DNA of 27,222 nt from a virus. A program made the translations under genes and the position numbers. Below the pieces are notes generated by a model. The model worked only from the letters and a program-made list of their open reading frames with translations, ran no database searches and was not told the origin of the DNA. The DNA lies in IMG/VR virus record IMGVR_UViG_3300009609_000049, positions 1-27,222 of that record; one strand, 5' to 3'. This document shows, piece after piece, positions 2,229 to 27,180 of this stretch (position 1 is the first letter of the stretch; each line of letters opens with the position of its first letter).

Positions 2229-2810
2229 ATGGCCGGTCAATTTTTGTCACCAATTCCGTTTTTGTACCAAGGCGAGCACCTCGTCCGCATCGTCATCGGT
2301 CCTGACCGCGAACCCTGGTTCGTAGCCGGTGATCTGTGCCGCATTCTCAACATAAAGCACGTCCCAAACGCGGTTGAGCGGCTCGATAAGGACGAAAAGT
2401 CGATAGCTGATGTCGTTTCAAACGACAGCAGAGGGCAACGCCGGGGTGTTTGGATCGTCTCCGAAGCAGGTTTTTTCACCCTGTCGCTGAGTTCCCGAAA
2501 GCCTGAAGCGATCACTTTCCGCCGTTGGGTGACCCACGAAGTGCTGCCGTCGATCCGCCGCACCGGGGGATATCAGCTATCCAGCGAACGCGCGGATAAA
2601 GCGTGGACTGACCGGCTGACCGCGGTGCGCCTGAGCGTTGCCGAACTGCGGCGCTCGTATGGGCCACGCAAAGCCGCCCTGCTCGGCGCTGATTTGTGGC
2701 GGAAGGTAGACGTAATCGTCGACGACCCATTGCCGCCGCAGCGCAAACTCGATCTCGACAACAGCGATGAGTCGAATGTTATCGATATGCGCCCCGACGA
2801 AGCCGGCTGA
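2229..2810 (+). CDS. Bro-N domain protein, probable phage antirepressor
   Basis: This is a 193-residue protein. Residues about 15-115 are a Bro-N (BRO family N-terminal) domain. Visible hallmarks are PWFVAGDLCRILNIKHVPNA, the LDKDEKS turn, WIVSEAGFFTLSLSSRKPEA and FRRWVTHEVLPSIRRTGGY. Bro-N domains bind DNA and are typical of phage antirepressors that relieve CI-type repression. The C-terminal 75 residues are helical and charged (SERADKAWTDRLTAVRLSVA) and do not match the usual ANT or KilA-C partner that I could name. ATG 2229 has a strong ribosome site, AGGAGAAGG (2217-2225). Its repressor partner is not in the window. Confidence 0.88.
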   Translation: MAGQFLSPIPFLYQGEHLVRIVIGPDREPWFVAGDLCRILNIKHVPNAVERLDKDEKSIADVVSNDSRGQRRGVWIVSEAGFFTLSLSSRKPEAITFRRWVTHEVLPSIRRTGGYQLSSERADKAWTDRLTAVRLSVAELRRSYGPRKAALLGADLWRKVDVIVDDPLPPQRKLDLDNSDESNVIDMRPDEAG

Positions 2811-2815
2811 TCGAA

Positions 2816-3754
2816 ATGACAAGCCAATTGCTCGCGGAAGCCGCGGCGCTGCCCGACCTCAACGAATACGCCGGCATGTCGGCGGTCGACATCGCGCACG
2901 CGGTGATCCACTGGCCCGAGGGGTCGGAGGATCAGATCAGAGCGATCAGCGCGTTGCGTGCATTGGTTCCCGATCGGCATCACAACCGCCCTCCGTTGAA
3001 GGAGGCGCTCGAGGAGGAGCTGGCGCCGCGCCGAGCCCGCGCCGACCAGCTAATCGGGGCTGCCGAAACCAGCGCCCTGATCCGCGGCGATGAAACCTCG
3101 GCGGCGAAGATGATCGACCTGGTGCGCCAGATGAAGGAGCTGCACGACGAACTCAACAAGGACCGCCTGGCGCGGACCCTGCCCTATCGCGATGCCGTCA
3201 AGCTGATCAACGACAATTTCGAGGCGGTGAAGCTGCGCCTCGCGCTGGCGATCGGCGGCACCAGCGGCCGGGACGGCTGCGTCGGCCAGCTGACCAAATG
3301 GGATGACGACAAGAAGGCCGCGGTCGAGGCCGAGCGCCGTCGCTTGGCCGAGGAAGCCCGCCAGCGCGAGGCGGAAGCCGAAGCCGCCCGCGCCGCCGCC
3401 GAGACGAAGGCGAAGGCGGGCAAGACCGACGTCGCGGCCGAGCTCGAGGCGGTACGCGCCCGGGATGACGCCGAGCGGCTGCAGCGCCGGGCCGACGCGA
3501 TCCGCCACGAGCCGACCCGATCGCAGCTGGGGCAGACGACGCGCCGCCGGCAGATCCGGTTTCAGGTCGAGGATTTCACAAAGCGCCTGCGCGGCATCCT
3601 GAAGTCGCCTCGCCGCTCGCAGATCGAGAAGCTGGTCGACGCCATCACCGAGCACGAGCTGCGCGATCTGGGCGTCGCCGCCGTCGAGCGTGGCGTCGAC
3701 ATGCCCGGAGTGCGCGTCTGGGTCGAGGAGGGGGGAGTCAGTGTCCGACGATAA
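2816..3754 (+). CDS. Coiled-coil early phage protein next to recT
   Basis: This is a 312-residue protein. The N-terminal ~80 residues are mixed and acidic. Residues about 80-170 are helical (SAAKMIDLVRQMKELHDELN; YRDAVKLINDNFEAVKLRLA). Residues about 165-225 form a highly charged coiled coil rich in Ala, Glu and Arg (AAVEAERRRLAEEARQREAE). The C-terminus is a mixed domain ending VRVWVEEGGVSVRR. Helical proteins of this type often precede recombination genes in phage early operons, some as nuclease inhibitors or host-interaction factors, but I cannot name this family. The gene follows the Bro-N gene by five bases and ends inside the ribosome-site and start region of the small frameshifted gene at 3741. 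No catalytic motif was seen. Confidence 0.75.
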   Translation: MTSQLLAEAAALPDLNEYAGMSAVDIAHAVIHWPEGSEDQIRAISALRALVPDRHHNRPPLKEALEEELAPRRARADQLIGAAETSALIRGDETSAAKMIDLVRQMKELHDELNKDRLARTLPYRDAVKLINDNFEAVKLRLALAIGGTSGRDGCVGQLTKWDDDKKAAVEAERRRLAEEARQREAEAEAARAAAETKAKAGKTDVAAELEAVRARDDAERLQRRADAIRHEPTRSQLGQTTRRRQIRFQVEDFTKRLRGILKSPRRSQIEKLVDAITEHELRDLGVAAVERGVDMPGVRVWVEEGGVSVRR

Positions 3755-3897
3755 TTTCCCGCTGGTGCTGTTCTTTCCCACCGAGGATCAGCGGGAACTG
3801 TTCATCATCGGGCCACGAGACGGATCGCCTACTCCTCGAGATGGCCCTTCGTCTGGAGCGCGAAGCCAACGAAATCGAGGCAAAGGGAGCAAAGTGA
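3741..3897 (+). pseudogene. Small gene apparently broken by a frameshift before recT
   Basis: GTG 3741 follows a strong ribosome site (GGAGGGGGGAG, about 3727-3737) and begins a natural-looking peptide (NFPLVLFFPTEDQRELFIIG). In that frame the sequence then turns into low-complexity residues and runs on without a stop into recT. In the +1 frame, from about 3830, a convincing helical tail appears (LLLEMALRLEREANEIEAKG). It ends at TGA 3895-3897, overlapping the recT ATG by one base, the coupling expected of a neighbouring gene. The simplest reading is a ~55-residue gene with a one-base shift between about 3822 and 3840. Alternatives are a programmed +1 frameshift, a sequencing error, or a true 52-residue N-terminal extension of RecT. 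Confidence 0.5.
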
Positions 3898-5465
3898 TGG
3901 CGCAGCAGCAGCCGTCGGCGCCACAACCGGCGCCGCGGCAGAACCTGGCGGAAGTCTTCTACAGCGACCTCGACGCCTACACGCCGAACCTGCAGGACGC
4001 ACTGCCGGCCGACATCCCGGTCGAGCGGTTCAAGCGGGTGCTTGTGACCGCCGTCTCGACCAACCCGGAATTGCTCTACGCCGACCGCCGCAGCCTGTTC
4101 AATGCGGCGATGCGGTGCGCCGTCGACGGGTTGATCCCCGATGGGCGGCAGGCGGCGCTGGTCGTGTTCCGCACCGACGTGAAGACACGCGACCCGCAGA
4201 CCGGCATCGACCACGTCCGCAAAATGGACGTAGCTCAATATCTACCGATGGTCGCCGGCCTGCGCGAGCGCATGCGCAAGTCGGGCGAGGTTGCCAGCGC
4301 GGTCGCCGAGGCGGTCTTCGAGAAGGATCACTTCCGTTATCGACTTGGCGACGACGCGATCATCGAGCACGAGCCGCCACCGCTCGGCGTCAGCCGCGGC
4401 GCGGTGATCGGTGCCTATGCGATCATCCGCCTGCGAAATGGCGAAGTGATCCGAGACGTGCTCGACCGCTCGATGATCGAAGCGGCGCGTAATGTCAGCC
4501 GAGCCAAGAACAGCCCGATGTGGACAAATTTCTACTGGGAGGGCGCAAAAAAAACCGCCCTCAGAAGGGCGGCGAAGCAGGCGCCGTTTTCGAGCGAACT
4601 GCGCCGGGTGCTGGATCGTGACGACGAGCCACCGGAGATCGGTCCCGATCTCGGCCCCGGCCTGGCGGCGCGCCAACCGGAGCCGCAGCGCGAGCATTAT
4701 CATATCGGCAACCATGCTCCGCCGACCGGCCCCGAGTTCGCGGTGGTCGATCTCGAGGGCGTCGAGAACATCTATGCCAGCCCCGGCGCCGCCGCCGAGG
4801 CGCTGCGGCTGTGCCTCGACGAAGCGGCCCGGCTCGGTCGCGAGCGGCTCGAGGGATGGTGGGAAAGCAACGACGGCGCGATCGAGTTCCTGGACGCCGC
4901 CGGGTACGGCCATATCACCGTCGAGCTCACCAACGACTATGAGGACAGACTTCGATTTTCGAAACCTGCTGACCGACATCAGCAGGGCGCCCCCGATCCG
5001 GCAGCGCGACCTGCACCAGCCCGCGTCGAGCCGAATCAGGGTGCATCTGGGGTGCCGCGCAGAGCGCGCCAGACGCAGCGGAGCGAGGAGCCGGCCCGCG
5101 AACCACCGGTAGAGGAACAGGCGCCCCACGCGCCACCAGCGGGCGACAGCGACCCGTTTGGTTTGGCGGAGGTCGACCACCGCATGCCGCCGACCGATGA
5201 GCCGCCGCCGGCGGAGCCCGCCGTGAATGTCGCGCTTGAGATCGTCGTGCCGCTGAAATCCGGCAAGCGGGATTACCGCACCTGGGCGCTGGCATTGCTC
5301 GGGCCCAAGGTGCGGCGCTGCGGCAGCTCGAACGAGCTCGCCGAACTGCTCGGCGCCAACGAGCAGGCCCTGGAGCAGGCCCGAGCGCCCGGCTCGATGA
5401 CGGCCGCCGATCGCGAGGAGCTGGAGCGGATTATCGCCGAGCAGTGGAAACGGCTGCCGGCGTGA
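3897..5465 (+). CDS. recT: RecT-family single-strand annealing protein with long C-terminal extension
   Basis: This is a 522-residue protein. Residues about 20-230 match the RecT family of phage annealing proteins, which coat single-stranded DNA and pair complementary strands during recombination. Visible landmarks are SLFNAAMRCAVDGLIPDGRQ, VAQYLPMVAGLRERMRKSGE, GAVIGAYAIIRLRNGE and WTNFYWEGAKKTALRRAAKQ. RecT proteins are usually about 270-330 residues. Here a further ~280 residues follow: an acidic/proline linker, a small domain (FAVVDLEGVENIYASPGAAA) and a helical end (ELERIIAEQWKRLPA). ATG 3897 was chosen because GGGAG (3885-3889) precedes it and it overlaps the upstream stop. The frame stays open to GTG 3741, a possible extended start. 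No YqaJ or RecE-type exonuclease partner is present. Confidence 0.9.
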   Translation: MAQQQPSAPQPAPRQNLAEVFYSDLDAYTPNLQDALPADIPVERFKRVLVTAVSTNPELLYADRRSLFNAAMRCAVDGLIPDGRQAALVVFRTDVKTRDPQTGIDHVRKMDVAQYLPMVAGLRERMRKSGEVASAVAEAVFEKDHFRYRLGDDAIIEHEPPPLGVSRGAVIGAYAIIRLRNGEVIRDVLDRSMIEAARNVSRAKNSPMWTNFYWEGAKKTALRRAAKQAPFSSELRRVLDRDDEPPEIGPDLGPGLAARQPEPQREHYHIGNHAPPTGPEFAVVDLEGVENIYASPGAAAEALRLCLDEAARLGRERLEGWWESNDGAIEFLDAAGYGHITVELTNDYEDRLRFSKPADRHQQGAPDPAARPAPARVEPNQGASGVPRRARQTQRSEEPAREPPVEEQAPHAPPAGDSDPFGLAEVDHRMPPTDEPPPAEPAVNVALEIVVPLKSGKRDYRTWALALLGPKVRRCGSSNELAELLGANEQALEQARAPGSMTAADREELERIIAEQWKRLPA

Positions 5466-7850: not shown

Positions 7851-9784
7851 TGGAGGGTTGAGTGTTTTAGAACGCTGGTGGTCGAGGCGGCATCTATCGT
7901 CCGCTGCGACGCTTGCAGGCTGAGAATGCCGCCAGTCTCCACCTCGATTGCGCCCTCCAGGTAAATGTCGGTTGCCACCAATTGCACATCGGTTAGCAGA
8001 TCGCTAATCGAGGCGCCTACCAACCGCGACAACAATGTCGTACCGTCCCATGTAACCGCAGTCATTCTCATGCTGGTCGGGTTGGTCATTCCGGCCGCGT
8101 TGACGAAACGCATCTTGATGCCGCCGCCAATCGTCGACGAGACGCTAAGATGCCCCGAGCAGTAATAGGTTTTGCCGGTTACGACAGGGATGCTCAAACC
8201 GGGCACGGCGGCTAGCACGTTGGAATTGGTAACATCGAGTTGCGAAGTGCTGGTCATCCATTGTGTATCAATCGAAGCATCGAATTTCGGGAGCGTGCCC
8301 GACAGCGAATAATCGACCGTTGCGGTTGCCGGGTTGAGATCGATCACAATTGGCGTCGTCGCCGCGATAATCGACACCCGCGCCGCGGTACCGCTATCGC
8401 ACACATTGTTGCTGGCGATCTGGTTCGATCCGTAGAGGCGAATACACGCGGGATAAGTGCCGCCGAGAATCGAGTTGTTGGAAATCAGGCTGCCGGTGCC
8501 GACCGTGGAGATGGCGGCAACCGAAGGCGTGCCGACATTCCACCCGGAGATCACATTGCCGGTAATGATGTTTTTCCCGGGGATGCCGCCATTGCCGGTC
8601 TGCTCGATGATCGCAGCCCCCGCATCAGCACCGCTGTTGACGATGATATTGTTGGCGATGACGTTGTTGAGACCGGGGTCTTCGATGACGATGGCGGTGT
8701 TGTGGGCGACGCCGTTGCCGGTGATGTAGTTGTCGGAAACGACGATGTTGGTGGCGCCGGAACCTGGGCGAGCCTTGCCGTTGAGAGCGATGGCCGCCAC
8801 GCCGTCGACCGGGATGTGAAAGACATTGCCGCGGATCATGCCGCCGCTCGACACCTGGTCGGTGCCGGCGCCGGTTATGGCGATGGGTCCAACGGTCTGC
8901 GACGGGCTGACGGTATAGGTGCCGACCGGGTTGGCCTGCGTGCCGGTGCCAATTGCGGTAACGACCGTGCCGGCGGCGACCCCGGTGCCCACAATGGCGT
9001 GGCCGACCAGCAGGTAGCCGTGCCCCACGCTGGTAATAGTCATCGTGGTAGCGCTGATCGAGCCGTTGCCGACAAACGAACTGCCGGTGCCGGTGATGTA
9101 GGAGCCGACCGTGTGAGCGTCGATGCAGGTATTGTTTACGACTTTGATGTTGGTGCTGCCTTCCCAGTGGTCCCAGCATGTGTTGGCGGCGCCATACATA
9201 TAATTATTATCGGTGGTAACATTGTCGCTGCCACGAAACGACACGCCGTCGCCCGCCCCGGTGGCGAGAAAGTAGTTGCCAGAAACGCGGACATTCCTGG
9301 CGTTCTTGAATGAGATAAAATGCACGTTGAACGGGGCAGCGAAGTTCTGGGTAAAGCGGCACCCGGAAACGGAGATGTTCTCGTCGATGATCGTCGGCAC
9401 CAGAAAATTGAAATTCTGGATAGCCGAATGCAGCGGTTGATATTGATAATTCTGCACCCAGTTCGGGCCGTCCATCGTGATCGTGACGCCGGGCGCACAG
9501 GAAAAGCTCGTATTCGACTTCAGCGTGAGCGTCGTCGTTATTTTGTAGGTGCCGGGTTGCGCCAGCACGACGGTGCCGCCCTCTGCCGGGAGCGCGTTGA
9601 TTGCCGCTTGAATGGCCGCCGCGCTATCGGCGGCGCCGCTCGGGTCACTGCCGGGGATGGCGCTGAGGTAGAACCGCGCGTCGGGCAATTTGGCGTTGCT
9701 CGCGTCGGGGAACATGTCCGCCCGGGCGCACCACGGCATTGCCAGTAGTAGCAGAGCCGCGGCCAATCTGTACATCGAGGTCAT
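7832..9784 (-). CDS. Exported-type tailspike: pectate-lyase-like beta-helix protein
   Basis: This is a 650-residue protein. Residues 1-22 form a typical Sec signal peptide: basic MTSMYR, a hydrophobic core AAALLLLAMP, and a cleavage site CARA before D23. Residues about 45-480 are a right-handed parallel beta-helix of the pectate_lyase_3 type, with AAAIQAAINALPAEGGTVVL at the start and many Asn/Gly/Val turns (VSDNYITGN, ANNIIVNS, ITGNVISG). A separate glycine-rich domain is inserted at about 240-305 (the phrase TYTVSPSQTVGPIAITG). The C-terminus (about 500-640) looks like a jelly roll. Such proteins bind or cut capsule or lipopolysaccharide. The start ATG 9784 overlaps the fibre gene stop as ATGA. 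A leader peptide is odd for a virion protein. Confidence 0.82.
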   Translation of the reverse strand: MTSMYRLAAALLLLAMPWCARADMFPDASNAKLPDARFYLSAIPGSDPSGAADSAAAIQAAINALPAEGGTVVLAQPGTYKITTTLTLKSNTSFSCAPGVTITMDGPNWVQNYQYQPLHSAIQNFNFLVPTIIDENISVSGCRFTQNFAAPFNVHFISFKNARNVRVSGNYFLATGAGDGVSFRGSDNVTTDNNYMYGAANTCWDHWEGSTNIKVVNNTCIDAHTVGSYITGTGSSFVGNGSISATTMTITSVGHGYLLVGHAIVGTGVAAGTVVTAIGTGTQANPVGTYTVSPSQTVGPIAITGAGTDQVSSGGMIRGNVFHIPVDGVAAIALNGKARPGSGATNIVVSDNYITGNGVAHNTAIVIEDPGLNNVIANNIIVNSGADAGAAIIEQTGNGGIPGKNIITGNVISGWNVGTPSVAAISTVGTGSLISNNSILGGTYPACIRLYGSNQIASNNVCDSGTAARVSIIAATTPIVIDLNPATATVDYSLSGTLPKFDASIDTQWMTSTSQLDVTNSNVLAAVPGLSIPVVTGKTYYCSGHLSVSSTIGGGIKMRFVNAAGMTNPTSMRMTAVTWDGTTLLSRLVGASISDLLTDVQLVATDIYLEGAIEVETGGILSLQASQRTIDAASTTSVLKHSTLQCHRKN

Positions 9785-11682
9785 TTCCAGTAGAGCCAGC
9801 CGAGCCCGGCGGCATAGCGGAACAGCAGCGCGGCGCCGGGGCCAAAGGCATTGACCGGCCCTGCGGGGAGCGCGACGCCATCAGCGTCCTGCATCGCCAA
9901 CGTCGTCACCGGATTGGCGAAGGAAATCTCGACCACGCCCGCCGCAACAGCCGGCAACCTGATGGTCAGCGCCGCCAGCCGGTCGGGATTGTTGACATAG
10001 ACCGGGCGCAAATCGGTGAGGGTCAGCGTGGCGCCGGAGACGGGCGCCACGACATTGACCGCGATCTGCTGCGGTTCGGTTGTCGGGGTGATGTCGAGAA
10101 AGTCGATGGTGATGACATCGCTTGTATGCGCGTCGCCAAAACAATCGACATAGGGTCGGACGTAGATGGTATTTGCGGGCGCGGTGTAGTCGAGCACGAC
10201 GGCGGCGCCCGGCGCGATGCCGATGCGGGCGCGACGCTGCTGCACGCCATCGGCGCCAACCAGCGCGATATTCTCGACAACCGTCGCGCCGTTGGCGGCC
10301 TTGGTGTTGGTGAGCCAGGCGAGGCCTACGGTGACGCTATCGTTGAGCGGGTCGGCAGGGTTAACCTGGCGTTGCACCCGCCAGCGGACTTCGTAGACGC
10401 GGCCGGGTTCGAGCGGGAAGGCGGTGGCGGTCGCCACGGTTTGCGGGTCGTCTGCGGTGGCGGCAGTGACGCGCACGACGCTGCCGGCCGGCGAGACGGC
10501 AACCCAGGCCGGGTCAATCGGCACAACGTCTTCGGGCTCGCCGGTCTTGGTTTCGCCGTAGAGCGCCACGGCATCGCCTGGCCGGGACGGCACTTGCGCG
10601 GACACGTCGGCGGCATCGGCCGCGGCTTGCGCCGCGGCGGCATCGGCCAGCGCCTGCGTCGCGTCGGCCTGCGCGGCATCGGCCGCGGCTTGCGCCGCAT
10701 CGGCGGCATCTGCTGCCGCGGTGATGTCAGCGGCTTGCGCGGTATCGGCGGCATCGACGTAGGCCGTCGTCGCAAGCTGCGTCGTGTTGGTGCCGGGCGC
10801 CGCGGTCGGCGCCGTTGGCGTGCCGGTGAGCGCGGGCGATAGCAGCGGCGCTTTGAGGTTGAGGGCGATCTGCGTTGCGTCGCTGATCGGCTTCGCCGCA
10901 TCGGATGTGTTGTCGACATTGCCGAGGCCGATATCGGCCGCGTTTACGGCGTGCGGGTTGTCGGTGTCCGCAGTGTGCGTATCGATGTCGGCTTGTGCTG
11001 CCGCTGCTGCTGCTGCTGCGACATTGATGGCGGCCTGCTGTGCGCTACTGACGGGCTTATCGAGATCGGCCGTGTCGTCGACGTTGCCGAGCCCGACCTG
11101 GCTCGCCGTGACAGCGTGCGGGTTTGCGGTGTCGGCCAGGTGCTCCGCGAGGTCGGCGGCGACGGCCCCGGTTGCGGCATTCGCTGCGTTGATCGCGGTC
11201 TGCGTCGCGGTCGAAACCGGCTTATCGAGATCGGCCGTGTCGTCGACGTTGCCGAGCCCGACCTGGCTCGCCGTGACAGCGTGCGGGTTTGCGGTGTCGG
11301 CCAGGTGCTCCGCGAGATCGCCCGCGGTATCGGCATCGCCGGCGGCGTTGGCATTGATCGCGGCCTGAACGAATTGCGTCGTGGCAAGCTGGCTGGTGGT
11401 CGTGCCTAGAACCGCTGTCGGCGCCGTAGGGACGCCTGAAAGCGCGGGCGAGGCGAGGTTAGCCTTCAGCGCCAGCGCGGCGGCCTGCGGCCCCGAGACG
11501 GGCTTGTTGGCATCGCTGGTATTGTCTACCGCGCCGAGCCCGATCTGCTCAGCGGTGACGCTGTGCGGGTTGTCGTTGTCGGCCAGGTGCGCATCGATAT
11601 TCGCCCGCGCCGTCGCATCGAACGCGGAGGCGTAAATTTTGACGGTGCGGGTGCTGAGATCGAGCGCGCTGCGGCTGCTCAT
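9781..11682 (-). CDS. Tail fibre protein with phage tail repeats
   Basis: This is a 633-residue protein. There are four copies of a ~40-residue tail repeat, at about 30-70, 123-165, 178-220 and 233-275. Each carries NPH-V-A--(I/V)GLG-VD(N/D)T-D--KP(V/I)S. Two units of a second motif (SPAL-G-PTAPTA ... QLATT) lie at about 78-105 and 282-308. Residues about 310-365 are an Ala/Asp/Gln coiled coil, and the C-terminal ~260 residues look like beta-rich receptor-binding domains. Start ATG 11682 overlaps the preceding stop as ATGA. The frame extends 91 residues further upstream, but that part is Arg-rich antisense to the neighbouring gene and was left out. Trimeric fibre function is inferred. Confidence 0.85.
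   Translation of the reverse strand: MSSRSALDLSTRTVKIYASAFDATARANIDAHLADNDNPHSVTAEQIGLGAVDNTSDANKPVSGPQAAALALKANLASPALSGVPTAPTAVLGTTTSQLATTQFVQAAINANAAGDADTAGDLAEHLADTANPHAVTASQVGLGNVDDTADLDKPVSTATQTAINAANAATGAVAADLAEHLADTANPHAVTASQVGLGNVDDTADLDKPVSSAQQAAINVAAAAAAAAQADIDTHTADTDNPHAVNAADIGLGNVDNTSDAAKPISDATQIALNLKAPLLSPALTGTPTAPTAAPGTNTTQLATTAYVDAADTAQAADITAAADAADAAQAAADAAQADATQALADAAAAQAAADAADVSAQVPSRPGDAVALYGETKTGEPEDVVPIDPAWVAVSPAGSVVRVTAATADDPQTVATATAFPLEPGRVYEVRWRVQRQVNPADPLNDSVTVGLAWLTNTKAANGATVVENIALVGADGVQQRRARIGIAPGAAVVLDYTAPANTIYVRPYVDCFGDAHTSDVITIDFLDITPTTEPQQIAVNVVAPVSGATLTLTDLRPVYVNNPDRLAALTIRLPAVAAGVVEISFANPVTTLAMQDADGVALPAGPVNAFGPGAALLFRYAAGLGWLYWK
11054..11151 (+). repeat. 98-base perfect direct repeat, copy 1 (tail fibre)
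   Basis: Identical base for base to 11219-11316, 165 bases (55 codons) away, in phase with the fibre reading frame. It covers most of the third tail-repeat unit. Identity at silent positions indicates a recent duplication or gene conversion. Confidence 0.9.
11219..11316 (+). repeat. 98-base perfect direct repeat, copy 2 (tail fibre)
   Basis: Partner of 11054-11151; covers most of the second tail-repeat unit of the fibre protein. The flanking bases diverge abruptly on both sides. Confidence 0.9.
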
Positions 11683-12011
11683 GTGTAGAGCCCTTCCACG
11701 ACCTTGACCGGCACCGCGGCCTCGGTGTCGGTGCCGACGGCGATGTACAGCTTGGCAAGTTGGCCGAGCGGCATCGCGGTCGTCTGCTCGGCCGTCAGCG
11801 ACAGCGTGACGAGCCCGGCGACGGCATCGGCGATCTCGGTGGTGACTGGCTCGGCGCCGAGGCTCCAACGGATCTCGGCCACGACGGTCTTGCCCGTGAG
11901 ATCGGTCGGTGTCGTCTCGCCGACATCTTCCCAAAAGACCGCGTGCCATTCCCACGGCTCGTCGCCGCGCACGAGCGGAATGGCGCCGTCAAGGATCTCA
12001 AGGTCGCTCAT
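11679..12011 (-). CDS. Small beta-sandwich baseplate/fibre protein (BppU-N-like)
   Basis: This is a 110-residue protein. Features are a short lead-in (LEILDGAIPLVRGDEPWEWH), a DLTGKTVVAEIRWS strand pair, and alternating beta strands (GLVTLSLTAEQTTAM; AKLYIAVGT) ending VKVVEGLYT. This is the layout of the BppU N-terminal type domain found upstream of phage receptor-binding fibres. It probably anchors or spaces the fibre. Start ATG 12011 overlaps the stop of the Tat-leader gene as ATGA, and its own stop overlaps the fibre start the same way, so the three genes form a tight cassette. The domain assignment is from fold-like pattern only. Confidence 0.65.
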   Translation of the reverse strand: MSDLEILDGAIPLVRGDEPWEWHAVFWEDVGETTPTDLTGKTVVAEIRWSLGAEPVTTEIADAVAGLVTLSLTAEQTTAMPLGQLAKLYIAVGTDTEAAVPVKVVEGLYT

Positions 12012-12910
12012 GGGATCATCCCATAGCTGCGGCGGTTTGCGGTCAGCGCGGTGCGCTCGGTTGCCGTCAGGGCGTAGCCGCCCCACAGGATGAGCTCCTG
12101 TATTTCGCAGGTTGTGGTTGCCGCGACATTCGCGGTGTTGATGGTGCCGGCGGTCACATTGACGGTCAGCGTAGCTGCGCCCGGTGCATTGTCATCAAGC
12201 TGGAATGAACTGGCGGCGCCGTTGATCCAGCCGGTGCCGCTGTGCCACAAATTGTCGGCACCAGTGCCGGTGATGGTCAGCACGTTGTCGGACAGCGCCC
12301 AGGTGTTGGCACTGGCGGTGGTATTCAAACGGTTGGCGCCGGCCCGCAGCCACATGCAAGTTGTGCCCGTTACACGTTTGCCGACGACGCTGATCGAGAG
12401 CGGGCTGACTGGCGTGTAGGCCGCCGACACAAGTGTCTGCGTGCTCGTCGTCTCCCGGATGCACGCATGCGTGCCGTTGCAATTGAAGATAAGCGCCGGT
12501 TGGTTTGCCGCGGTCGTCTGGGTGATGTCGCGGGCCGCGCCGCTTTGGTCGAAGGCTGTTTTGACAAAGCAATTCGTTGCATTGCAATGCGCCGCCGCGG
12601 CAGCTTCGTCCCACGGCGCGCCGGTGAAGCTGGTGAAGCCGAGATAGCCGATGGTGGCCTCGGCGTTGTCGCTGGCGCGGCGTATGACAAAGGCGTTGCC
12701 GGTGTAGGCAGAGAGGAGCTTGCGAAACGAATATGCCGCATGCGGCGTCGTGAAGGTGTCCAACGCACCGCCGATCGGCACCTTCAGCCGGTGGTGTCCC
12801 GGCCCGGCCATGTTCGGCCCGGCCTTCATGCCGGCCTCGACGACGCCGGCAATCGCGGTCGCCGCCGCGAGCGAGGCTAACGCGGCCGTTATGAACTCGC
12901 GGCGACGCAT
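12008..12910 (-). CDS. Tat-leader, AbfB/LamG-like carbohydrate-binding virion protein
   Basis: This is a 300-residue protein. The N-terminus MRRREFITAALASLAAATAI reads as a twin-arginine (Tat) leader: RRxFI, a long alanine-rich core, then about residue 27 a VEAG cleavage-type site. The mature part begins with an arabinofuranosidase-B-like module (ALDTFTTPHAAYSFRKLLSA, IRRASDNAEATIGYLGF, FDQSGAARDITQTTAANQPA) seen in many phage tail proteins. A concanavalin/LamG-like jelly roll follows (LSISVVGKR; INGAASSFQLDD; CEIQELILWGGYALTATERT). That suggests glycan binding. No catalytic pair was confirmed, so hydrolase activity is not claimed. It lies between the small Sec-leader gene and the BppU-like gene. 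Confidence 0.72.
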   Translation of the reverse strand: MRRREFITAALASLAAATAIAGVVEAGMKAGPNMAGPGHHRLKVPIGGALDTFTTPHAAYSFRKLLSAYTGNAFVIRRASDNAEATIGYLGFTSFTGAPWDEAAAAAHCNATNCFVKTAFDQSGAARDITQTTAANQPALIFNCNGTHACIRETTSTQTLVSAAYTPVSPLSISVVGKRVTGTTCMWLRAGANRLNTTASANTWALSDNVLTITGTGADNLWHSGTGWINGAASSFQLDDNAPGAATLTVNVTAGTINTANVAATTTCEIQELILWGGYALTATERTALTANRRSYGMIP

Positions 12911-22414: not shown

Positions 22415-24412
22415 TCAGGCGACGTAAGCGACGCCCGACAGGTATTCCACCGCGGTATCGCGCGCCCGGTCCCAGTTGATGTAACGCTCGGCCCGGATGG
22501 CGATGCTGTTGGTCTGGAACATCGAGACGCTTTGCGTTGCCACCGGCGGCGAGCCGCTCGACTGGGTCGGCGCCGAGTCCATCTGCAAGCTCGCTTCCCG
22601 GCTGGCATCGATGGTCACCGTGCCGTCATCGGCCAGCAGGATATCGCCAGCGTTCACCAGGATGATATTCGAGGTGGCGGGCGCCCCCGCTGCCGCCATG
22701 TGCTGCGAGGTAATCACCGGCAGCCCGAAATATGTCCCGCCGTTCATCGTGATGTCGGGGAATTCCGGCTGGTCGAGCGCGTTGCGCATCATCGACAAAG
22801 TCAGCGCGGTGGTCGCGTTCATGATCCACACACTACCGGCCGGCGACAGATTGTTGGCGATAAACTTCCCGAACAGCGCCTGCACGTCGGCCCGCGCCGC
22901 CGCCGAGTCGGTGCCCGATGTGGCGGTCGCCGAGATGCCGTTGGTGATCGAGGCCGGCCTGGTGTCGGCGATAGCGGTGATCGCCGGGTCGACAAAGGTC
23001 AGGTCGATCCGCGCCACCAGCGCGTCGCGCAGCCCGTTGCGCACCAATTCCTCGGCGGCGGGCGACGAAAACCGCGCGAGCTCCTCGGTGATGACCGCGA
23101 TGTTGGCGCATTTCGCCCAGCGCAGCGTCACCGTGTCGAAGGCGAATTGGGTCAGCGGTTTAGCCGCCCCCTCGCCGACCCAGTAAGCATCACCGCCGCC
23201 CGTTTGTTTCGGGATGCGGACATTGAACGGCACCGCGCGCAGGCTGGGGATGCCGCCCATGCCGAATTTGCCGACGATGGTCGAGGGGCGTAGAAACTCC
23301 AGAAATTCGCCCGCCAGGTTCTGATATTGCACCAGGGCGCTTGCCCAGGTGGCGTCGGTGGTCGTGCCGGCCGCCACGGCGGCGCGCAGCACAATGTGCA
23401 GATCGTCCATGTCCGGGTAATGGTGCTCGGCAATCTGCAACGCCGCGCCGGGCGCGCCGTTCGCCGCCATCAGGCATTTTGCGTACCGGGCAAAGCCGAT
23501 GCCGGGCGGCAATTGCCGCCTCATCGCGGTGACGACCGGGGCGCCGCGCGAGGCGGTGCCCTTGGCGGCCGAGCCGCCGTCCACCGCCTTGGCCTGCGCC
23601 GCGCTCAACTGCTCGGCCGTGCGCAACCGCTCGAGGTGCTCGTCGATAGCCTTCAGTTCGCCGTCGAGGCCGTCGTATTCCTGCTGCTGCGCCTCGTCCA
23701 GCGTCTCGCCGCTGTCGCCGGCCTTTTCCATGATGGCCAGCATCCGCGTCGCTTTCTCGGCGCGGGTGTTGCCGAAATCCGCAATCTGCTCACTGATCGA
23801 TTTAGGCATTCTCTGGGCTCCGTGAAGCCGCAGCTTCACGCTCGTGCCCCCGACGCGGGGCATAGGTTTGGTGGGCGGATTGCCCGGTGCCCCCGACGCG
23901 GGGCCTGATGTGGCGGCGGTTTGCCCGTGGCCCAACGCGGCCAGCAACTCGCCGTCAACCGATTTGATCGTCTGGATGGTGGCGTCGGCGTTCGCCGGGA
24001 TCGTCACCAACGACAGTTCCAAGACTTCGCTCGCGATAAACCGGATGCCACCGTCGTCCATGTAGGACTGCTCCAGCGGCCGGAACCCGATGCTGACGCC
24101 CCGCACCAGCCCGGCCTTGACTTCGCCCCATGCCGTGTCGACGCGCTGTTGCAGCGGCCCCGGCTCGGCAATGTGCGGCAGGTTGGCGATAAACCGGATG
24201 CCGTCAGCGGTCGGCTTCCGAAACGTCACAGTGCCGACCGGCGCCGCCGATTGATGCTGGTGCAAGAGCGGCAGCGGGTTGGTGAACTTGACACCGAGCG
24301 GCTCCACGATGTCGCCCACCCGATCCGGGCTGGGGGTCGTGGCCACGCCCTCGATCACGCGCGCGTCGTCGTCGACGGCTTTCACCGTCAGCAGGCTATA
24401 GGCTCGGTTCAT
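22415..24412 (-). CDS. Fused HK97 prohead protease - major capsid protein
   Basis: This is a 665-residue protein. Residues about 1-150 are an HK97 prohead protease: RVIEGVATTPSPDRVGDIVE, LPLLHQHQ with the catalytic histidine (about 51-53), VKAGLVRGVSIGFRPLE, and LELSLVTIPAN with the catalytic serine (about 134). A ~50-residue Gly/Pro linker follows. From about 202 comes the capsid: a delta-type coiled coil (ISEQIADFGNTRAEKATRML ... IDEHLERLRTAEQL), then the HK97 shell (PFNVRIPKQTGG, YWVGEGAAKPLTQFAFDTVT, TYFGLPVITS). I chose ATG 24412 (GAGG upstream); TTG 24433 overlaps the terminase stop and is an alternative. An internal ATG at 23809 could make capsid alone. Most phages have these as two genes. 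Confidence 0.88.
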   Translation of the reverse strand: MNRAYSLLTVKAVDDDARVIEGVATTPSPDRVGDIVEPLGVKFTNPLPLLHQHQSAAPVGTVTFRKPTADGIRFIANLPHIAEPGPLQQRVDTAWGEVKAGLVRGVSIGFRPLEQSYMDDGGIRFIASEVLELSLVTIPANADATIQTIKSVDGELLAALGHGQTAATSGPASGAPGNPPTKPMPRVGGTSVKLRLHGAQRMPKSISEQIADFGNTRAEKATRMLAIMEKAGDSGETLDEAQQQEYDGLDGELKAIDEHLERLRTAEQLSAAQAKAVDGGSAAKGTASRGAPVVTAMRRQLPPGIGFARYAKCLMAANGAPGAALQIAEHHYPDMDDLHIVLRAAVAAGTTTDATWASALVQYQNLAGEFLEFLRPSTIVGKFGMGGIPSLRAVPFNVRIPKQTGGGDAYWVGEGAAKPLTQFAFDTVTLRWAKCANIAVITEELARFSSPAAEELVRNGLRDALVARIDLTFVDPAITAIADTRPASITNGISATATSGTDSAAARADVQALFGKFIANNLSPAGSVWIMNATTALTLSMMRNALDQPEFPDITMNGGTYFGLPVITSQHMAAAGAPATSNIILVNAGDILLADDGTVTIDASREASLQMDSAPTQSSGSPPVATQSVSMFQTNSIAIRAERYINWDRARDTAVEYLSGVAYVA
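23821..23840. repeat. Perfect hairpin at the protease-capsid junction
   Basis: CGTGAAGC/GCTTCACG is an 8-base perfect stem with a 4-base loop. It lies 11 bases upstream (late-strand sense) of the internal ATG 23809 that begins the capsid part. A role in translation or RNA processing is possible. Confidence 0.6.
23844..23861. repeat. 18-base direct repeat at fusion junction, copy 1
   Basis: Identical to 23887-23904, 43 bases apart. Each copy contains a 5-base stem (CCCCG/CGGGG). The copies are read in different frames of the fused protein, so they are nucleotide-level repeats and not a protein repeat. Confidence 0.7.
23887..23904. repeat. 18-base direct repeat at fusion junction, copy 2
   Basis: Perfect partner of 23844-23861 in the linker code between the protease and capsid domains. 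Confidence 0.7.
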
Positions 24413-24429
24413 GGAGAAAGCCTCGGGCG

Positions 24430-27180
24430 TCAACTACCCAGGAAGAACATCTGATATTCGGGCGGGCGGCCGACGCTGCGCTTGGCCAATTCCAGCGCCA
24501 TCACCGCCGCCACCGCGCCGTCAACCCGCACCGGGCCGCGGTTGTGCGATTTTTCCTTGTCGATCTTCTGATTGCCCGCCGCATCGTTGACGATCACCGA
24601 GCCCGCCATGCAGGCCCCCAGCACCGGGTGCCCGCCATGCCGCAGCCTGCCGGTCATGGCGAGCTCGCCGAACCACTCAATGGCCGGCGACATCTCCTTG
24701 AAGCCCTGCCCGAACGGCTCCAGCGGCACCGCGAAATTCGCATCAATGTCCCGCAAATCCTCGCGAAAGTCGTCGATCCGCCAGCGGTCGTAACCAACCA
24801 CCCGGATATCGAACTCCTGCGCCAGCTCCACCAGCGCAGCAGCGACAAAGCTGAACCGCACCGTGGCGCCCGGCACCGCCACCATGTGCCCCTTGGCAAT
24901 GTAATTCTGGAAGCGCTCGCGCTCGCGTTGTTGCCGACCGGTAAGCGATCCCTGCGGCGTCCAGAAAAACGGCAGGAGGTCGAAACTCGGCTCGGGATCG
25001 TCGTTCGGGAAGGCGAGAACAAGCGCCGTCAAATCGTGCTTACCGCTGAGATCGAGCGCCGCGTAGCACACCCGGCCCCGCAGCGCCGCCCGGTCCACCG
25101 GCATCACGCCGAGCTTCCACACCGCCTGCGTGACGAGCCGCTCGTCTTCCGCCGCATCGATCCGCTGGTTGAGCCGCAGATTGCGAAATGACGCCTCAAA
25201 TGCCGGAATGCGCCGGGCGCGATCCGCCGCGGTGCGCATTTCGTCAAGGCTGAGAAACTTGCCGAGCGCCGGATTGCACGCTTTCCAGGTCGCCTCGGCG
25301 AACGGGTCGGCGTCCGGCGGCGCCGCCGTCAGCTGCACATAAAGGCTCGGGTCATCACCGCGCAGCCCCTCGTCGATGAGCTGCGATAGCGGGTGCGTGT
25401 CATCCGGCGCCTGCGTCGAGATTATCAGCCCGAGCGCTTCTTTGCGCTTGCCGAGCCCGTTGACCAGGTTATCGAGCAGCACCCGATCCTTCGCCTGCGC
25501 CAACTCATCGTAGCAAAATAACGTCGGCGACAACCCGTGCGCCCGCCGCGCATCCGCCGACAGCGCTTCGTAGATCGAACCTCGCCCGGGACCGGATTGC
25601 ACTTCGATCTTTTTGTTAAACCGGATGATGTTGCAGACCTCGGCAAATTCCGGCACCGCGTAGATAATCGCCTCCATCTCGGCGAAGATCAGCGCCGCCA
25701 TCTGCCGGTCGATTGCCGCCGAATAGATCTCGCCCCGATCTTCCGCCTCGGGACCGACCAGGTGGCAAAGACATAGGCCGGCAATGAGCCCGGTGTTGTG
25801 TGTCGGAAGCATCGTCCGGCCGCACAGGAACAACCGTGATGGGCTGTCAACCTGGAGACATTTTGTCGGAACGGGATCGACGCGCTCGACGCTCGTGATC
25901 ATCACACCCCTGGTCGGATCAGAGGCAAATCCGGATTGCGACAATTGGCGAGCCGATTTCCTCGCCAACCGAAAGAGCGACACCTGATTGCGATGGGCCG
26001 TGAAAGTGAACCGATATGCGGGTGCCGCGGCCGTTTCCCTTAGCGTCCGGCGATATTTGATGCCGAACGTCGCCAGCAATTCCACAAAACCTTCTGCCAG
26101 AGTTTCTGAGGTGGTCAGGAACTCCGCTTGCCCCTGCCTCTTCGAACAAAATCCATCTGTATCCATTAGCCCCTGGAGCAGAGCTTCGCGTTGCTCTCGG
26201 GATGCCCTCAGATAGATCGATGGAATATGCTTGCGTCCGAGCACCCCGATGCGCCCAAGCGTTTTCTGCAGATTCGCGGAATGCCTTTTAGCGACCGGCC
26301 CATTGGTGCCGTCGGCACGTTCTTCCATCGCCCGCAGAACAAGTGTTGGTGCTCGCCCGACACCCCACTGGCGTATATCAACCGCAAGTCCAGTCGCCCG
26401 AAGCTCTGCCGCCATCTCTTCGGCATCGTCAGTGCCGGCAGTGATTGTTGCAGCGTGACTGTCCCCGTCACCAAGCCAAGCGCCGAGCACATAGGGATCG
26501 ACGGGAAGGTCGGCCCATCTGCCACTGAACGGAGCGGTAAGCTGCAGCCGGTGTGATTTAAAGCCGGCACCGTAAGTCTGGGTCCGATACAGCTCGCGAG
26601 TGTCCCGAACCCGATATGCCTTGCTGCTGAACGGTTCGCCGCGGCTTGATTGCGGCAATCGTTGCACTTCAGGCCATGACAGCGTCAGCCAGCGGTGGTC
26701 GCCATCGGCAATGATCTTCTCCCCATTCGAGAATGTGATTCGATAGCAATCCAAGAGCCGAACCGGACTTACCATCGTCACCCGGCATTCATTACCCGCG
26801 TCATCGAACAGCGCGTCGCCGGGCTGAACCGCTCCCATCGTCGTCCACCCCGCGGGCGTCGGTAACGGGGTACCCAGCGCCAGGCCTTTCCCATTTCCCT
26901 TTGGCTCCGACTTCACGCCGATGCGGCGCTTGCGTCGTCTGCGCCGGTCCAGATTACCGTATATCTCCTCGATGAACTGCCGCTGACCCGGAAGTAAACG
27001 CATTCGCTCCCCAGCTAACGGACCCTTAGTCACCGGCAACCACTCGACAAACGCCGCCACCATCTCGGGGCGCGTCAGACCGCGCTTTGTCCACGGAATG
27101 ACTTTGCTCTTGGGGCGCGAAGACTCCGCAACATCCCACGCCAGCAGCGCCGATCCACCTAACCGTCCGCGCAGTCCCAC
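24430..27180 (-). CDS. terL: Large terminase subunit (TerL) precursor with intein
   Basis: This 916-residue precursor would be 552 residues after removal of a 364-residue intein. The ATPase part has the Walker A SEPKGNGK (91-98), continued after the intein as TGLIAGLCL, and Walker B TLFCYDELAQ. A coupling-type stretch (GLIISTQAPDDTHPLSQLID) follows. The nuclease part has the RNase-H-like opener AALDLSGKHDLTALVLAF, VVGYDRWRIDDFREDL, and a final acidic segment (RVDGAVAAVMALEL). It packages DNA into proheads. Start GTG 27180 has a purine-rich GAGAAGG directly upstream, at short spacing. No in-frame ATG precedes residue 40. The stop overlaps a TTG of the next gene. Confidence 0.93.
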   Translation of the reverse strand: MGLRGRLGGSALLAWDVAESSRPKSKVIPWTKRGLTRPEMVAAFVEWLPVTKGPLAGERMRLLPGQRQFIEEIYGNLDRRRRRKRRIGVKSEPKGNGKGLALGTPLPTPAGWTTMGAVQPGDALFDDAGNECRVTMVSPVRLLDCYRITFSNGEKIIADGDHRWLTLSWPEVQRLPQSSRGEPFSSKAYRVRDTRELYRTQTYGAGFKSHRLQLTAPFSGRWADLPVDPYVLGAWLGDGDSHAATITAGTDDAEEMAAELRATGLAVDIRQWGVGRAPTLVLRAMEERADGTNGPVAKRHSANLQKTLGRIGVLGRKHIPSIYLRASREQREALLQGLMDTDGFCSKRQGQAEFLTTSETLAEGFVELLATFGIKYRRTLRETAAAPAYRFTFTAHRNQVSLFRLARKSARQLSQSGFASDPTRGVMITSVERVDPVPTKCLQVDSPSRLFLCGRTMLPTHNTGLIAGLCLCHLVGPEAEDRGEIYSAAIDRQMAALIFAEMEAIIYAVPEFAEVCNIIRFNKKIEVQSGPGRGSIYEALSADARRAHGLSPTLFCYDELAQAKDRVLLDNLVNGLGKRKEALGLIISTQAPDDTHPLSQLIDEGLRGDDPSLYVQLTAAPPDADPFAEATWKACNPALGKFLSLDEMRTAADRARRIPAFEASFRNLRLNQRIDAAEDERLVTQAVWKLGVMPVDRAALRGRVCYAALDLSGKHDLTALVLAFPNDDPEPSFDLLPFFWTPQGSLTGRQQRERERFQNYIAKGHMVAVPGATVRFSFVAAALVELAQEFDIRVVGYDRWRIDDFREDLRDIDANFAVPLEPFGQGFKEMSPAIEWFGELAMTGRLRHGGHPVLGACMAGSVIVNDAAGNQKIDKEKSHNRGPVRVDGAVAAVMALELAKRSVGRPPEYQMFFLGS
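25795..26886 (-). mobile_element. Class 3-type intein with LAGLIDADG endonuclease, in TerL
   Basis: The 364-residue intein covers precursor residues 99-462. The N-terminus is GLALGTPLPTPAGWTTMG, where residue 1 is Gly, not Cys/Ser. Block B is IIADGDHRW (H162, W164). The endonuclease motifs are VLGAWLGDG (about 231-239) and LLQGLMDTDG (334-343), both with the acidic residue. Block F is TKCLQVD with C441. Block G is LPTHN ending at N462, followed by Thr as first downstream extein residue. Trp, Cys and Thr at these places are the W-C-T set of class 3 inteins, which splice through the block F cysteine. Removal rejoins GNGK to TGL, restoring Walker A. All splicing and nuclease motifs are present, so it looks active. 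Confidence 0.9.

Follow-up and report, generated by a model that had tools for sequence, protein, structure and literature searches.

The large terminase gene (terL) of an HK97-type tailed phage, carried on the 27,222-nucleotide viral sequence analysed here (the window), very probably contains a full-length mobile class 3 intein, whose splicing would restore a terminase with a contiguous GNGKT motif (estimated probability about 0.92). The original prediction that a class 3-type intein splits the TerL Walker A motif is thus supported by sequence, empty-site alleles, homology to solved structures and the fold of a structural model. The anatomy of the element is directly established (Table 1): the insert is in frame, its first residue is Gly and its last two are His-Asn, and the reading frame is open across all 364 codons.

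Table 1. Coordinates of the terminase open reading frame, the intein and its signature residues in the window (single residues are in intein numbering).
Feature	Position	Strand	Detail
ORF, TerL precursor	24430-27180	-	GTG start; 916 aa; no internal stops
N-extein of TerL	26887-27180	-	Residues 1-98; C-terminal end ...SEPKGNGK; K98 is the -1 residue
Class 3 intein (most probable reading)	25795-26886	-	364 aa; ORF residues 99-462; between K98 and T463, Walker A GNGK/T
Gly1, non-nucleophilic first residue	26884-26886	-	Start fixed by empty-site alleles
His64, block B:10	26695-26697	-	Invariant in 20 aligned inteins
Trp66, block B:12	26689-26691	-	W of the WCT triplet; alignment
LAGLIDADG homing endonuclease domain	25915-26520	-	Residues about 123-324; Pfam and structural matches
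First LAGLIDADG motif, VLGAWLGDG	26464-26490	-	Intein 133-141; acidic D140; alignment
Second LAGLIDADG motif, LQGLMDTDG	26152-26178	-	Intein 237-245; acidic D244; alignment
Thr341, block F:2	25864-25866	-	Covaries with Gly1
Cys343, block F:4	25858-25860	-	C of WCT; predicted initiating nucleophile; alignment
Thr362, block G:5	25801-25803	-	T of WCT; alignment
His363-Asn364	25795-25800	-	Penultimate His and terminal Asn (predicted to cyclise); alignment
C-extein of TerL	24430-25794	-	Thr+1 is the Walker A Thr; remaining ATPase domain and nuclease domain

The exact empty site is preserved in two IMG/VR contigs (L010 and L011), whose terminases are 91% and 87% identical to the spliced product and possess no intein. 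In both, KSEPKGNGKTGL is uninterrupted and GNGKT is contiguous. The splice boundaries are therefore unambiguous, given that no shift of the ends could reproduce this reading. More distant intein-free relatives (L012-L014; 35-36% identity) read PKKNGKS or PKKQGKS at the site, and two others (L015 and L020) carry inteins at the equivalent position, after PKKQGK and PKKNGK, respectively. The segment was therefore inserted and does not belong to the terminase itself, and both of its ends are defined with single-residue precision. The placement of the insertion exactly between the Lys and Thr of GNGK-T, as first proposed, was borne out by this comparison, and the possibility raised with that proposal, that homologous terminases might retain it as a regular domain of their own, was answered in the negative. 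The wider family to which these distant relatives belong (L012-L020; 35-37% identical to the window TerL) is itself mixed, with class 3 inteins in L015-L018 and L020 and none in L012-L014; the inteins in this family have the junction PKKQGK/S or PKKNGK/S and begin with Gln1 or Glu1.

The host protein is a large terminase of the HK97 type. Pfam identified TerL_ATPase and TerL_nuclease domains in the extein flank after the insert, and the ATPase and nuclease domains are continuous once the insert is removed. The spliced extein is homologous to the HK97 terminase gp2, which has no intein (40% identity over 92% of the length); against the HK97 TerL structure (6z6d) it scored E=1.2e-106, in an alignment that runs through NGKTGLIAG and places K98, the -1 residue of the intein, on HK97 TerL K60.

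Several other genes in the window were noted. The major capsid protein and the maturation protease are fused in one ORF (22415-24433, minus strand; phrog_617, with the protease at residues about 14-283, phrog_80). In the tail region, a 300-aa ORF (12008-12910, minus strand) is matched in part, at residues 57-136, by the catalytic domain of an alpha-L-arabinofuranosidase (PF09206, E 2.7e-10). A 724-aa tail-fibre-like protein (9781-11955, minus strand) has short overlapping matches to many fibre families and no Pfam match. A 591-aa RecT-family annealing protein (3690-5465, plus strand) is matched by Pfam at residues 112-313, leaving a long C-terminal part unmatched, and a Bro-N protein is encoded nearby (2229-2810, plus strand).

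The assignment to class 3 follows the defining sequence features in the literature (PMC3196547; PMC7891396; PMC5050341). The insert does not begin with Cys, Ser or Thr, it carries the full WCT triplet at B:12, F:4 and G:5, and it groups with class 3 DnaB inteins. The residues named in the original prediction by their ORF positions (W164, C441, T460 and N462) are W66, C343, T362 and N364 of the intein, and the absence of an N-terminal nucleophile noted there agrees with the Gly1 start defined by the empty-site alleles. Across an alignment of 20 inteins from unrelated phages, H64, W66, C343, T362, H363 and N364 are invariant. By sequence (phmmer), the closest solved relatives are the class 3 mycobacterial DnaB inteins 6rix, 6riy and 6bs8 (E about 1e-21 or better, reaching 3.8e-23); PI-SceI comes next, through its similarity to the endonuclease part. 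Other classes were also considered. A class 1 intein would begin with a nucleophilic residue, and the element begins with Gly1. Class 2 comprises KlbA orthologs that carry Ala1 and have Ser at G:6 (PMC4031507), and is ruled out by His363 at G:6, Gly1, the presence of WCT and the TerL host gene.

The insert also encodes a predicted homing endonuclease domain. Pfam LAGLIDADG_3 matched inside it above the cut-off (5.5e-8), and both LAGLIDADG motifs are present and intact, as had been claimed, retaining the acidic residues D140 and D244, which are nearly or fully invariant in the 20 aligned inteins. An AlphaFold model of the intein, built from a 7-sequence alignment (mean pLDDT 78), matched PI-SceI across residues 1-364 (Z 28.9, 333 residues, 3.5 A), and its splicing part matched MchDnaB1 (Z 20.8, 129 residues, 1.8 A, 44% identity). 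The model therefore supports a predicted Hint plus LAGLIDADG fold.

Characterised relatives suggest, by analogy, how the intein would splice (on the model of the class 3 mechanism, PMC4031507), that the terminase would depend on this step, and that the endonuclease would be active and support homing. The terminase would be made as a single precursor chain, in which Cys343 would attack the K98-G99 bond to form the block F branched intermediate, as in characterised class 3 inteins. The N-extein would then be passed to Thr+1, cyclisation of Asn364 would release the intein, and an acyl shift would restore GNGKT, so that the joined terminase would regain ATPase and packaging activity. The LAGLIDADG domain would cut an intein-free terL at the site, where the intein gene would be copied in by homing; the intein-free terL genes of L010 and L011 are candidate targets. 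Since K98 corresponds to HK97 K60, and the K60A substitution abolishes both ATPase activity and packaging (PMC9410871), the unspliced precursor is in all likelihood inactive, and the earlier suggestion that unspliced terminase could not bind ATP normally is sound.

The notion that the segment is an ordinary extra terminase domain, or an assembly artefact, found no supporting point and has a negligible probability, being refuted by the empty-site homologues and opposed by the Hint and LAGLIDADG fold of the model and by dozens of intein-bearing terminases with the identical junction. A subtler alternative is that splicing is conditional on redox, temperature or another signal and so gates assembly of the packaging motor, in line with the original prediction of a splicing-dependent control point for packaging. 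The insertion does block the Walker A motif, and Cys343 may be open to oxidation, as reported for a mycobacterial DnaB intein (PMC6195587). However, no feature found here points to regulation, so the control point is unsupported; close relatives manage without the intein, tested phage TerL inteins spliced readily (PMC5050341), and insertion at a conserved active site is equally expected of a selfish element. Gating of this kind is therefore improbable. About as improbable is that the element is a decaying intein, of class 3 by descent, which has lost splicing through Gly1 or other changes, in which case this terL would be non-functional or its product would come in trans from another phage. 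Loss of activity in a class 3 intein has a precedent in Arsp-FB24 (PMC3196547), but that intein is a pseudogene without Cys at F:4, a residue that the window intein has; moreover, the catalytic residues of both activities are all intact and the 364 codons open.

One point in favour of decay is Gly1 itself, a minority residue, given that the AceL NrdHF class 3 intein no longer splices once A1G is introduced (PMC7891396). The survey covered 246 inteins of the class 3 kind, all full-length and non-redundant, and 19 of them have Gly1 naturally, all with Lys-1; the 18 besides the window intein are full-length, open-frame and from varied host genes, and always have Thr at F:2, two residues before the WCT Cys. 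Thr occupies F:2 in 19/19 Gly1 inteins vs 28/227 others (Fisher p 6e-16), making F:2 the column most strongly associated with Gly1 among all intein columns, residue 1 itself excepted; the scan yielding L193-L256 used a pattern with PT[QRK]C and was thus biased to Thr at F:2, and with that scan and the window dropped the pairing stands at 12/12 vs 24/185. Ala1 and Pro1 are mostly paired with Val at F:2, and in phylogenetically independent pairs this broader pairing gave a median p of 0.016. Independent pairs for Gly1 and Thr were too few for significance, and none ran in the opposite direction. A scan using the endonuclease only yielded no new Gly1 inteins, and hence no independent replication of the pairing. 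The pattern across these sequences probably reflects structural coupling, with shared ancestry the alternative, and, read in this way, Gly1 is no sign of a dead intein. We suggest more tentatively, and with rather less than even confidence, that Gly1 inteins may represent a distinct solution at the N-terminal splice site, in which Gly1 needs both Lys-1 and Thr at F:2. In the same survey, four inteins (L050, L060, L213 and L228) appear to combine traits of class 1 and class 3, since their WCT is complete or nearly so and they seemingly start with Cys (putative boundaries).

Evidence on the history of the intein is consistent with the mobility proposed for it. Near-identical TerL proteins without it, the distant hosts of its kin and a deviating composition are all signs of probable movement. 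The distribution is patchy: the closest exteins have no intein, and the closest inteins (45-47%) lie in terminases merely 22-26% identical to that of the window. The GC content of the intein is 59% vs 64% for the whole extein, and its GC3 is 0.63, compared with 0.81 for the C-extein, 0.86 for the capsid gene and 0.68 for the short N-extein. No close relative of the intein was found, the best identity being at most 45-49%; among viral contigs, kin reached at most 36% in a single-sequence search and at most about 45% in alignment-based searches. In a tree of the 246 inteins, the window intein groups with L193, which also has Gly1 and lies in a related terminase. Intein and extein distances are partly correlated among 48 related terminases (Mantel r 0.47), and thus not all of the intein's history is recent transfer. 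A co-conversion tract flanking the insertion was looked for in nucleotide identity to L010 and L011 and was not seen; near the site, identity to L010 was 0.80-1.00 per 30 bases, slightly higher than the 0.83 averaged over the gene, and identity to L011 did not exceed its average.

Inteins of this type are well represented in phage. A tblastn search with the intein matched 750 of the 50,697 phage records searched, and in many of these the annotation is terminase large subunit; a Vibrio phage terminase intein scored E=2e-71. Among the 246 surveyed inteins, the complete WCT triplet is present in 243 and a GK/S or GK/T junction in 175, and terminases recognisably related to the window TerL host 51. 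The K/T site of phage TerL (TerL1-a) was described by Kelley et al. 2016 as a classic P-loop insertion (PMC5050341); the same study reported five mycobacteriophage TerL inteins, at other sites, which splice, two of the five cutting empty alleles. Furthermore, 1,701 class 3 inteins were counted in nr in 2020, with LAGLIDADG motifs in 82.5% (PMC7891396). Given the published site, the survey counts and the nr total, the finding is not novel but one more case of a published intein type at a known site, and the rarity of class 3 inteins implied by the original prediction was overstated.

The nearest known systems are the TerL1-a inteins of mycobacteriophages such as Rakim and the TerL inteins of Vibrio phage 489E54-1, Escherichia phage Ec_Makalu_002 and Rhodobacter phage RcMenchie. 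Like the window intein, these are full-length, occupy the Walker A Lys/Thr site, have no N-terminal nucleophile, and have WCT, a THN end and a LAGLIDADG domain. However, identity over the intein is 31-40%, they begin with Ala1 or another residue in place of Gly1, and the extein here is HK97-type. The mycobacterial class 3 DnaB inteins (MchDnaB1, 6rix; M. smegmatis DnaB, 6bs8) have the Hint fold, the WCT triad and the class 3 signature in common with it, but are helicase mini-inteins as solved, without an endonuclease domain. PI-SceI, the yeast VMA intein, shares the two-domain architecture in a full-length structural match, but is a class 1 intein of a eukaryotic host gene with 17-18% identity.

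As a single case, the finding carries small weight: the known class 3 inteins gain one more clearly delimited member, for which empty-site alleles of very high similarity exist. Its value lies in a clean natural pair of HK97-type terminases with and without an intein, in a protein whose active-site Lys has already been probed by mutation. If true, the Gly1/Thr pairing would explain the loss of AceL NrdHF splicing by Gly1 alone. Should it hold, it would point to residues that tune the class 3 N-terminal splice junction, and would bear on intein engineering.
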